This document shows positions 28,231-31,944 of a stretch of DNA of 64,000 nucleotides, one piece after another. The notes under the pieces are model-generated. The model saw only the letters and a program-made list of their open reading frames with translations. It was not told where the DNA came from and ran no database searches. Position 1 is the stretch's first letter. Every line of letters starts with the position of its first letter. This stretch comes from Pseudomonadota bacterium (GTDB lineage: Bacteria; Pseudomonadota; Gammaproteobacteria; Burkholderiales; Burkholderiaceae_E). The stretch spans positions 1-64,000 of the forward strand of contig CAUJHG010000036.1 in NCBI GenBank assembly GCA_963204785.1, given 5' to 3'. The translations under genes were made by a program, and so were the position numbers.

Positions 28231-29019
28231 ATGGCAGCACGCAGCCGTCCGTCCTTCGGTGCCTGGCTCTGGGCGCTCTGGCTGAGCGCACCGCTGGTCG
28301 CACAGGCACAGGGCTCCACCTGCCAGGAGATCAATCTCCCGCGCGCCGATCACACCGGGCCTGGCACCGTGGTCACCTGGGACTGCGCCCGCTTCGAGGG
28401 CGAATTCGCCAAGGGCAAGCTGCGCAAAGGCAGGATCAGCTACCGCGACGGAGAAGTCCTCGAAGGAACCTTTGGCGACCACGACCGGCTCGAAGGCCAG
28501 GGCAGCCGCAGATTCCGCGACGGAACGATCCAGGAGGGGAACTTCGTGCGCGGGGGCCTGGTGGGCGAGGCGCGGATCACGATGCCCGACGGAAGGCGCT
28601 TCCAGGGCGATACCCTCCACGGGCGGCCCAACGGACACGGCACGCTCACCCATCCCGACGGCAGCGTCGATCGGGGTTTCTTCACGCCCGACGGACAGCC
28701 GATCGGCTTCATCGTGCGCACGATGCCCGACGGCAGCCGGCTTGCGGGGGAGTTCCGCGCAGGCAAGCCCTTCGGTGACGTGGTCACTGCCCGGCCCGAC
28801 GGAAGCGGGGAGATCCGCAGCCACGCCTGGGGAGGCGGGCCTGCGGCGCCGGCGTCCGCGCCGGGATCGGCAGGAAGCCCCCAGACCGGTGCAGGCAGCG
28901 CCACGACCGCCGATGCACCGCTCCCGTCCCCCAGCCCCCAGCCCGCGACGACGCCCACCCAGACCATCGACGAGGTCCAGCGGGCGGTGCGCGGGCTGCG
29001 CGGACTCTTCGGCCGCTGA
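28231..29019 (+). CDS. Secreted MORN-repeat protein
   Basis: The 262-residue protein has a Sec signal peptide (about residues 1-26, cleavage after AQA). It then has a series of MORN-like repeats of the form DG-x-x-x-G-x-F, e.g. YRDGEVLEGTFG, RDGTIQEGNFV, MPDGRRFQGDT, HPDGSVDRGFF and MPDGSRLAGEF. The C-terminal 60 residues are a Pro/Ala/Ser linker ending in a helix, TIDEVQRAVRGLRGLFGR. MORN repeats usually bind lipids or proteins. It is the first gene of a tight cluster: the next gene starts 8 nt later. The function is unknown. Confidence 0.85.
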   Translation: MAARSRPSFGAWLWALWLSAPLVAQAQGSTCQEINLPRADHTGPGTVVTWDCARFEGEFAKGKLRKGRISYRDGEVLEGTFGDHDRLEGQGSRRFRDGTIQEGNFVRGGLVGEARITMPDGRRFQGDTLHGRPNGHGTLTHPDGSVDRGFFTPDGQPIGFIVRTMPDGSRLAGEFRAGKPFGDVVTARPDGSGEIRSHAWGGGPAAPASAPGSAGSPQTGAGSATTADAPLPSPSPQPATTPTQTIDEVQRAVRGLRGLFGR

Positions 29020-29027
29020 GGTATCCG

Positions 29028-29714
29028 ATGCGACGACTCCTGACCGCTCTGCTGCTCGCGTTCGCCGGCACCGGCGCAATGGCCCAGGGCCAGGCCTGCG
29101 GCTGCGAGGACGTGCGCGACCTGCGCAACCGGATCTGCGAGGCACGGGCGGCGATCGCCGAATACGATCGTCAGATCGAACGCATCCAGCGCTACGAGAA
29201 GGACGTGCTGCGCAAGCCGCTGCAGTACACGCCGCAGCTGTACGAGGAGCGGATGCAGCCGTGCGTGCAGGAGGCGATCAACTCGGTGAGCGACTCTGGC
29301 GCACGCAAGGGGACCGCAAGGACGAACAACGCCTGCAACATCGTGTTCGACCAGCAGCCCCCCACCCGCTGCATTGCGGAATCGCTCGGCGCGCACGAAC
29401 GATTCCACCAGCTGGAGTGCATGGAGAGACGGCGCGTGCGCGACGAGCAGTCGCTCTTCGCACCCTTCCTCTCGATGTTCGAGGACACCCGCGCCGGCCA
29501 GTCGATGATCTCGATCGCGCTCGAGGAGAAGGTCGCGTATCGGCGCGAGATCGACCACAACCTCGACCAGCTGCGCAGGCTCGCCTCCTCGTGTCCCCGC
29601 TCGCTGTTCGAGATCGAGCGTCGCGGCAGGCGCGAGTTCACGATCGACTACTGCGCGCCTGCGCGCCCCCGTCCCAAGCCGGAGGAATCCGCCTGCCCGC
29701 AGCCGCGGGGCTAG
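29028..29714 (+). CDS. Secreted protein with HExxH motif, putative zinc peptidase (novel)
   Basis: The 228-residue protein starts with a signal peptide (residues 1-20, GAMAQG). A coiled helical stretch follows, then AHERFHQ at residues 122-128, which fits HExxH. About 40 residues on comes EEKVAYRREI (166-175), matching the position and form of the third-ligand Glu helix of several gluzincin-like families. Ten cysteines suggest disulfides in the periplasm. I do not recognise the family; peptidase activity is inferred from two motifs. It lies between the MORN gene (8-nt gap) and the carboxypeptidase gene (1-nt gap), so all are likely one transcript. Confidence 0.75.
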   Translation: MRRLLTALLLAFAGTGAMAQGQACGCEDVRDLRNRICEARAAIAEYDRQIERIQRYEKDVLRKPLQYTPQLYEERMQPCVQEAINSVSDSGARKGTARTNNACNIVFDQQPPTRCIAESLGAHERFHQLECMERRRVRDEQSLFAPFLSMFEDTRAGQSMISIALEEKVAYRREIDHNLDQLRRLASSCPRSLFEIERRGRREFTIDYCAPARPRPKPEESACPQPRG

Positions 29715-29715
29715 C

Positions 29716-30588
29716 ATGGCAATGCTCGACCGGCGCGCGCTGCGCGCGGGCTCGCTTGGCGCAGTGCTGGCGATGGTCGCGCCATCGGCCGGCCAGGCCA
29801 GCCCGCCTGCGGCTGCGGCCGGCGTGCGCGCGCACGCGGCTGCGCCCGAACGGATTGCGGCGTACGCGCTGCAGGTGCGCGGCAGGCTGGTCGAAGCGTG
29901 GCACGGCGACGCGCCGCGACAACCGGCGAGCCTGGCGAAGCTGGCACTGGCGCTCGCCGTGGCCGCGCAGGACGGTGGAAGGATCGATCCCGAGCGCGTC
30001 GTCAGCGTCAGCCCGCGCGCCGCGGCAATGCCCGCGGCGCGCCTGGGCCTGCGCGCCGGCGAGCGCGTCCGCGCCGCCGACCTGCTGCGCGCGCTGCTCG
30101 TGGCGTCGTCGAACGACGCCTGCATCGCGCTGGCCGAGCAGTTCCCCGGAGGCGTGGCCGGGGCCGTCGCGGCGATGAACCGGCTGGCGGCTTCGCTGGA
30201 CATGCGCTCGACGCGGTTCGCCGACCCCTGCGGCTTCGACCACCCCTCGCAGTCCACCACTGCGCGCGACCTGCTGCGCCTGGCCGACGCATCGCTCGCC
30301 CACCCCGACGTCGCGGCCGCCGCGGCCGAGCGCTCGGTCACGGTGCGCACCCTCGACGCAGGGCGGGCGATCAGCGCGAACAGCTCCAATGCGCTGCTCC
30401 TGCGCCAGGGCTCGGTCAACGGACTGAAGACCGGCCGGACCCGCGGCGCCGGCGCCTGCCTGATCCTGAGCGCGCAGGAGGCGGACGCACGGGTGGTGAT
30501 CGTGCTGCTGGGGGCGCAGGACCGCTGGGAGAGCGCCGAGCGCCTGCTCGAGCGCGGTCTGCACCTGGCGTTCGCCGGGCCGCGCTGA
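29716..30588 (+). CDS. D-alanyl-D-alanine carboxypeptidase-like serine hydrolase (S11)
   Basis: The 290-residue protein has all three penicillin-binding-protein motifs: SLAK at 72-75, SSN at 131-133 and KTG at 238-240. A hydrophobic, Arg-led N-terminal signal precedes them. Class S11 enzymes trim the terminal D-Ala from peptidoglycan stem peptides. It ends soon after the catalytic domain and lacks the C-terminal beta domain and amphipathic anchor of DacA, closer to the PbpG type in length. The start is 1 nt after the HExxH gene stop, so it is translationally coupled in the four-gene envelope cluster. Confidence 0.88.
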   Translation: MAMLDRRALRAGSLGAVLAMVAPSAGQASPPAAAAGVRAHAAAPERIAAYALQVRGRLVEAWHGDAPRQPASLAKLALALAVAAQDGGRIDPERVVSVSPRAAAMPAARLGLRAGERVRAADLLRALLVASSNDACIALAEQFPGGVAGAVAAMNRLAASLDMRSTRFADPCGFDHPSQSTTARDLLRLADASLAHPDVAAAAAERSVTVRTLDAGRAISANSSNALLLRQGSVNGLKTGRTRGAGACLILSAQEADARVVIVLLGAQDRWESAERLLERGLHLAFAGPR

Positions 30589-30597
30589 GCCGCCGGC

Positions 30598-31944
30598 ATG
30601 CGGCGCAGCGCCTGGTGGCTCGTGCTGCTGGCCCTGACGGTGCACGTGCAGACGCTCTGGGGACCGCTCCAGTTCGACGACCACGCAACCCTTGCGGTCG
30701 ATCCCGGCGCGCGATCGATCCCGGCCTGGTGGTCGGGCCTCGCGACGCACGTCAGGCCGCTCACCAAGCTGAGTTTCGCGCTGAGCGCGAGCGCCGGCAG
30801 GCTGATCGGCTCGGAAGCGTTCGCGCACCACCTGGGCAACCTGCTCGTGCACGCGCTCGCGGTCGTCGCGCTGGACCAGATGCTGCGGGCACTGCTGCGC
30901 AGCTGCGTCCCCGGGCTGACGCGCGAGGCGGCAGCACGGGCGGCGTTCGGCGCGGCGGCCCTGTACGCGGTGCACCCGATCGTCACCGAGGCGGTGGCCT
31001 ATCTGAGCGGCCGGTCGATGGCGCTGGGCAGCCTGTTCGTCTTCGCCGGGCTGGACGGCTGGATCCGGGGTCGGCGAGCGCTGGCAGTGGGACTGCTCGC
31101 CGCGGCCGTGCTCGCCAGGGAGACCATGGTCGCCGCGGCGCTCCTCGTGCCGCTCTGGGAGTGGGCGCGCCTGGATCGGCCGGGTCCTGCGTTCTCGGCG
31201 GCACGCCTGCGCACACTGGGCCCGGCGGCGGCCACTGCCGCAGCCCTGCTTGCGCTGGCCGGCGCGTGGCTGGCCTGCACGGACCGCTACGCGGCGCTCC
31301 TCGGCCTGTCGCTGCGGATCGGCGCCGACCGGCTGGGCGCGCCGAGCTTTCTCGTGGCCCTGCGCCACTTCGCGGAACTGATCGTGCTCGCGCGCTATCC
31401 GAACATCGATCCGGACGTGGCCATGACCCTTCCGACGGCTGCGCGGCTCGCCGGCATGGCGCTGCTGGCGAGCCTCGGACTGGCCGCCTGGCGATCGCGG
31501 CGCACCCGTCCGGAGCTGCTGATCGCCCTGCTCTGGGCGTGCGTCTTCATCGCACCGCTGTACGCGGTCCAGTTGCGACACGACGCGATCGCGGAGCGTC
31601 ACTTCCTCCCCGCACTGGCGGCAGCCGCGCTGCTCGCCGGCACGACCGCCGCGCGGGCCGGCCGCACCGGAACCGGCCTGCTCGTCGGCGCCGCGCTGCT
31701 GTGCACGGCCGTGACGCTGACGCGAAACGCCGACTACCGCAGCGAGATCGCCCTCTGGGAGGCGACCGCGCGCGGATCGCCGAACAAGGTCCGCGTCCTG
31801 AACAACCTGGGCGCCGCCTACCTCGACGCGCAGCGCTGGCCGCAGGCCGAGGCGGTGCTGCGCCGGGCGCTTGCGCTGGACCCCGGGCACGCGCTCGCCG
31901 CGGAGAACCTCCTGCAGGCGCGCACGCGCCAGGGACCGCGCTAG
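30598..31944 (+). CDS. Polytopic membrane protein with C-terminal TPR (TMTC/GT-C-like)
   Basis: The 448-residue protein has about ten hydrophobic spans, an early acidic motif LQFDDHATL after TM1 (the position of the GT-C catalytic Asp) and PLTKLSFAL plus ALYAVHPIVTEAVAYLSGR. That last motif is characteristic of the bacterial TMTC-like family. A TPR-type ending follows (NNLGAAYLDAQRWPQAEAVLRRALALDPGHALA). By analogy it could transfer a sugar from a lipid carrier, but this is inference. It starts 9 nt after the carboxypeptidase and closes the cluster; it converges with the flavin oxidoreductase. Confidence 0.8.
   Translation: MRRSAWWLVLLALTVHVQTLWGPLQFDDHATLAVDPGARSIPAWWSGLATHVRPLTKLSFALSASAGRLIGSEAFAHHLGNLLVHALAVVALDQMLRALLRSCVPGLTREAAARAAFGAAALYAVHPIVTEAVAYLSGRSMALGSLFVFAGLDGWIRGRRALAVGLLAAAVLARETMVAAALLVPLWEWARLDRPGPAFSAARLRTLGPAAATAAALLALAGAWLACTDRYAALLGLSLRIGADRLGAPSFLVALRHFAELIVLARYPNIDPDVAMTLPTAARLAGMALLASLGLAAWRSRRTRPELLIALLWACVFIAPLYAVQLRHDAIAERHFLPALAAAALLAGTTAARAGRTGTGLLVGAALLCTAVTLTRNADYRSEIALWEATARGSPNKVRVLNNLGAAYLDAQRWPQAEAVLRRALALDPGHALAAENLLQARTRQGPR

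Follow-up and report, generated by a model that had tools for sequence, protein, structure and literature searches.

A modular envelope cassette of Burkholderiales that joins tailed exported proteins to a GT-C-like/TPR protein: a candidate client-dedicated modification system

Introduction

What could a MORN-repeat protein, a cysteine-rich HExxH protein, a carboxypeptidase of the S11 family and a polytopic membrane protein that resembles GT-C glycosyltransferases (GTs) and has a C-terminal TPR be doing together, encoded in immediate succession on one strand of a bacterial contig? The question arises from a window of 64,000 nucleotides, by which we mean the whole stretch that was analysed (positions 1 to 64,000 of contig CAUJHG010000036.1, assembly GCA_963204785.1, from a Pseudomonadota bacterium of the Burkholderiales). 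From comparison of sequences and gene neighbourhoods, we tentatively favour reading the cluster as a cassette that glycosylates a dedicated client protein and places it at the cell surface, in which the linkage of the GT gene to a gene for an exported protein, the presumed client, is observed across genomes, while GT activity and the role of the client as acceptor are what we infer from it.

Conservation and modularity of the cassette

The four genes occur in identical order and on the same strand in two other genera, represented by genomes G044 (contig JADCHE010000072) and G057 (QEVL01000022), whose proteins share 31-50% identity with those of the window. All three junctions in G044 are 4-bp stop/start overlaps, and in G057 contig ends cut the MORN gene in two: its tail and its body are on different contigs, the body at a contig end. 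Since the flanking genes are unrelated among the three genomes, the block appears to have been kept as a unit, and this conservation across genera shows that the cluster is more than chance. We accordingly regard it as improbable that these are co-transcribed neighbours with separate envelope tasks, kept adjacent by chance and by the block's lateral transfer: the patchy spread of the block (HExxH homologues in 3 of the 74 species of the family, one each in 3 of its 16 genera) and the gain and loss of modules between genomes would suit such an origin, but the order retained in three genera at that level of divergence between unrelated flanks, the translational overlaps and the repeated pairing with unrelated tailed clients speak against it. 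Plasmids searched for the HExxH protein gave no match, and we did not count as homologues the weak matches in G330, in G339 and, within a mutS-like gene, in G099.

The carboxypeptidase and the GT-C/TPR protein form a wider Burkholderiales module, seen in 22 genomes: with GT and S11 searched separately, the S11 gene lies directly upstream of the GT gene in 12 of 200 relatives, and the sample of the order added ten more. The window's S11 product, a putative D-Ala-D-Ala carboxypeptidase-type peptidase by sequence, matches PF00768 over residues 56-268 (E 4.2e-41) with complete SLAK, SSN and KTG motifs, and SxxK, SxN and K[TS]G are kept in all 12 aligned S11 homologues of S11+GT loci. A client carrying a shared C-terminal tail, described below, precedes 21 of the 22 pairs, including one in G188 that lies 6 kb away, and also stands before the GT in 7 further loci with no recognised S11 (the count leaves out G344). 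Loci lacking a tailed client are those of G226, which has S11 and GT, and of G012, G100, G155, G261, G211 and G691. In G188 (L078:868-8999), the client and the S11-GT pair are separated by about 6 kb of genes that include a RelE/ParE-like toxin-type open reading frame (ORF), as if by insertion. In G100 (L085:7000-7053), a short frame preceding the GT and ending in GGGADDLKKLLKS looks like the remnant of a lost tailed client.

Across genomes, then, the GT gene stands beside a gene for an exported protein, and the identity of that protein varies. Client bodies belong to at least four unrelated sequence types, namely MORN, DUF3617 (PF12276), a family that we call WGCGE, for which Pfam has no name, and one or more further types; they have no obvious sequence and no Pfam domain in common, yet their C-termini agree. 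The HExxH protein is found, among the cassettes, only in the MORN version.

The first-pass annotation of this DNA had taken the four genes for a single transcript and an envelope cluster, had made the proposal depend on their co-occurrence in other genomes, and had proposed a conserved-neighbourhood search for the MORN and HExxH pair. The conserved order and strand in other genera support an operon-like unit, the same four genes do co-occur in two of those genera, and the pair recurs in G044, G057 and G691. The combination had not been recognised there as a described system, and among the papers searched we found no description of it, nor any paper on DUF3617. A conserved envelope cassette therefore stands, but not a closed four-gene system, because G691, from another family of the order (f22), has MORN, HExxH and GT without S11, and most S11+GT loci have no HExxH gene: the cassette is modular, with S11 and HExxH as optional modules and a variable exported client as its first gene.

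The shared C-terminal tail

The shared tail comprises about 14 residues that follow a low-complexity linker. The MORN protein of the window ends in VRGLRGLFGR-COOH and is the only ORF of the window with such an end; clients elsewhere end in ALEGAKKLKGMFGF (G095), AIDGVKSIRGLFGF (G162) and LKEGAGKLKKFLKF (G141). A 14-residue matrix trained solely on eight DUF3617 clients, with 397 predicted gene tails as background, gives seven unrelated clients higher scores than almost every one of these gene tails, and the MORN tail of the window is outranked by only two of the 397, one of which is itself a true client. The top-scoring "background" match is a 369-residue protein of G188, encoded 6 kb upstream on the same strand and ending in VKEGAEKLKKFLKF; until then G188 had been the only locus in the first set without an apparent client, so the matrix found its client unprompted. 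As a control, in the 30 top-ranking DUF3617 proteins from relatives, the tail is present in just the one adjacent to a GT and in none of the 29 others.

A DNA pattern for the tail, applied to 91 genomes and followed by a family search, brought out the WGCGE family (L205-L221), exported proteins with a WGCGE/WGCSE motif. Every member examined has the tail, mostly as [LI][KR]G[LI][FL]GR, and the members scanned gave no Pfam or NCBIfam match. An AsmA-like exported protein in G074 (L189:805-1530) ends in AVKGLFGK and may be a further tailed type.

Two known kinds of C-terminal signal were considered for the tail. The tail contains no transmembrane helix, which sets aside a sorting signal of the transmembrane PEP-CTERM or GlyGly-CTERM type, and ten clients compared with the CTERM models of NCBIfam gave no match above cut-off. 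Many copies have Arg as their last residue, and an outer-membrane beta-signal was discarded on that ground.

The GT-C-like protein and its pilin-linked relatives

All 17 members of the GT family have a C-terminal TPR, and an Asp-containing motif (D27, D28) is present in the predicted first extracytoplasmic loop. Family scans of the window protein gave only TPR models, besides DUF7471 at E 0.031; PF02366 was matched in one of the 17 members (E 0.0013), and an O-antigen-ligase-type domain is not indicated, Wzy_C_2 being matched weakly in 3 of the 17 (best E 0.001). A profile of the N-terminal part had no match among PDB sequences, and a Foldseek search with the predicted model of the window protein placed Pmt4 and the catalytic subunit of oligosaccharyltransferase (OST) as the best PDB matches, with PglB lower.

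Among 54 GT domains placed in a tree, those associated with the tail fall into one group of 18 (15 with tail and 3 other; 92/98), and in the other large group 20 of 33 rows are immediately preceded by a type IV pilin gene. In many families of Gammaproteobacteria, GT-C/TPR proteins of about 600-700 residues are encoded right after type IV pilin genes (loci L127, L130-L132, L136, L137, L139-L145, L148, L149, L054, L057 and L060-L063). Those that were scanned matched above cut-off only the TPR models of Pfam and NCBIfam, and since these are their sole family matches, the pilin-adjacent proteins seem to form a class, so far without a name, of candidate glycosyltransferases for pilins.

These relatives bear on what the GT might act upon. 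A possible but less favoured explanation dispenses with protein glycosylation: the GT-C protein would add sugars to a lipid or envelope polymer, the S11 enzyme would trim peptidoglycan, and the tailed proteins would bind or scaffold the modified envelope. The S11 product is an intact peptidoglycan-type enzyme in every aligned S11+GT locus, the ArnT branch of GT-C enzymes modifies lipid A and ArnT has been named as nearest to the TMTCs (PMC7801869), and tailed proteins occur also without a GT, all of which would fit; against this, what consistently accompanies the GT is an exported protein and not a set of lipid or polymer genes, and the longer GT relatives mostly adjoin pilins, a known protein acceptor. 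For the GT on its own, we grade a lipid or polymer acceptor almost as likely as the client. The first-pass annotation had suggested modification or remodelling of the cell surface; an envelope cassette is retained from that suggestion, and general remodelling is less favoured. Taken together, the tail that unrelated clients have in common and the association of the relatives with pilins, neither of which that annotation had noted, point to modification of an exported protein.

Gene structure and the remaining products

The coordinates of the locus are collected in Table 1. The ORFs are separated by gaps of 8, 1 and 9 nt, and their codon-position GC is of the coding type throughout (third position 0.84-0.91, second position 0.48-0.61). 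A rival long frame on the minus strand (28440-30986) was rejected as a gene, since its codon-position GC of 0.67/0.68/0.83 is not of this type. A divergent thioesterase gene and a convergent old-yellow-enzyme gene flank the cluster. The coordinates, strands and gaps given for the four ORFs in the first-pass annotation were borne out, as were its MORN, HExxH, carboxypeptidase and TPR calls (PF02493, HERFH, PF00768 and PF07719); of its GT-C/TPR label, the TPR part is confirmed by PF07719, and the GT-C part draws on the invariant Asp-Asp pair and weak fold matches, with no database family match.

Table 1. Features of the four-gene locus in the window
Feature	Position	Strand	Details
MORN-repeat ORF, presumed client	28231..29019	+	262 aa; N-terminal export signal by inspection; orthologues at the corresponding position in G044 and G057
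Final 14 residues of the MORN protein (C-terminal tail)	28975..29016	+	VQRAVRGLRGLFGR; cationic, borderline amphipathic; also in G044 and G057
HExxH ORF, putative zinc peptidase	29028..29714	+	228 aa; cysteine-rich, exported; no known family
HERFH motif	29394..29408	+	HExxH, residues 123-127 of the HExxH protein
Peptidase S11 ORF, D-Ala-D-Ala carboxypeptidase type	29716..30588	+	290 aa; without the PBP5-type C-terminal domain
GT-C-like polytopic ORF with C-terminal TPR	30598..31944	+	448 aa
Asp27-Asp28, candidate catalytic pair, first loop	30676..30681	+	DD invariant in 17 homologues
TPR region of the GT-C-like protein	31747..31890	+	residues 384-431; PF07719, E 1e-6

The export signals of three products were read from their N-termini only. 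The MORN repeats match PF02493 above cut-off (E 2.5e-6). The HExxH protein matched no family above cut-off in Pfam, NCBIfam, PHROG or PDB sequences, the weak match being DUF5700 (E 0.035). Across its four aligned homologues, from four genera in two families, H123, E124, H127, the downstream E166 and E167, Y171, E174 and ten cysteines are invariant, which fits a putative zinc enzyme that is exported and carries disulphide bonds.

Discussion

How these pieces might work together can be put as a sequence of conditional steps. The first gene would supply the client to be exported, in this case the MORN protein; the short cationic tail at its C-terminus would keep it at a membrane face or dock it. 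The GT-C enzyme, TMTC/PMT-like, would transfer a polyprenyl-linked sugar onto the client, its TPR facing the periplasm and helping to recognise the client, and the S11 enzyme would open peptidoglycan, or trim its pentapeptides, at the site that receives the client. As an accessory, the HExxH protein could process the client by clipping or folding it.

Several results weigh against this client-dedicated reading. The structural model of the GT is poor (pLDDT 55, best fold match at E 7e-3), and in hhalign comparisons E. coli ArnT scored above three decoy membrane proteins against the GT profile, a result that we count here and not as support. The amphipathic moment of the tail is borderline in most copies and merely suggestive, and a fold search of the PDB with a model of the HExxH protein (pLDDT 73, made from 3 sequences) found no match. 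In G691 the MORN protein lacks the tail. Tailed WGCGE proteins mostly lie away from any GT, some of them in genomes that gave no such GT. One member of this family is a second tailed protein in the genome of the window itself (G000:C51:15058-16308, L210) and ends in AIDAIRGIFGR.

The WGCGE family rules out a strictly GT-specific signal: because its members carry the tail mostly without a GT, the tail is not private to that enzyme, and it may instead serve more generally to dock proteins or hold them at a membrane face, a function that GT/S11 cassettes would exploit. One could go further and place the tail at the core, as a signal at the C-terminus that localises many exported proteins and is read by S11, by the TPR or by some other factor, the cassette being its one-client version. 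We consider this unlikely. It would explain why unrelated exported families have the tail in common and why the second tailed protein of the window's genome lies outside the window, and genomes with a single GlyGly-CTERM/rhombosortase client are a precedent for placing a client next to its processor (PMC3237569); on the other side, the tail has no transmembrane helix, and most genomes with tailed WGCGE proteins have no GT, so that a common reader of the tail would not be the GT. A bolder variant, which we likewise hold to be improbable, is a new C-terminal tag system of Gram-negative bacteria, in which a short cationic tail free of transmembrane segments and common to unrelated exported proteins would be read by a TMTC-like GT-C/TPR enzyme, with S11, that covalently adds a sugar or links the tagged proteins to the peptidoglycan sacculus.

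If the client-dedicated reading is true, the TMTC-like GT-C/TPR proteins, common in bacteria and noted in full-length prokaryotic form with TPRs as uncharacterised (PMC7801869), would be client-dedicated protein glycosyltransferases, with one branch serving pilins and another serving tailed exported proteins. They would also offer bacterial models for the TMTC enzymes, in which the modified target can be tested on a named neighbour.

Comparison with known systems

The S11 product resembles DacA and DacD in its complete SxxK, SxN and KTG motifs and its PF00768 domain, and differs from them in having no C-terminal domain or anchor and in being a fixed partner of a GT-C/TPR gene. Like the GlyGly-CTERM/rhombosortase and PEP-CTERM/exosortase systems, the clients share a short C-terminal element on otherwise unrelated exported proteins; unlike those signals, which are tripartite, with a motif, a transmembrane helix and a basic end (PMC3237569), the tail has no transmembrane helix, and no sortase-type protease was identified with it.

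The GT-C-like protein is built as are the TMTC1-4 protein O-mannosyltransferases (GT105), with an N-terminal GT-C-like membrane part followed by TPRs, but it has about one TPR against their many, and it is encoded in a bacterial operon with peptidoglycan and HExxH genes. Closest in genetic arrangement are the protein-specific O-glycosyltransferases TfpO, TfpM and PglS, often encoded near their target, of which TfpO and TfpM modify its C-terminal residue (PMC12645811), together with TfpW, which like TfpO is a pilin accessory glycosyltransferase of P. aeruginosa (PMC11841053). As in these systems, a polytopic candidate transferase stands beside one exported client, and the C-terminus of the client is where TfpO and TfpM act. 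Unlike TfpO, TfpM and PglS, which are of the O-antigen-ligase type, the protein of the window is GT-C-like with a DD pair and a TPR, its clients are not pilins, and S11 and HExxH proteins accompany it. The cassette is best read as client-centred and of this client-adjacent transferase kind, and not as a proven glycosylation system.

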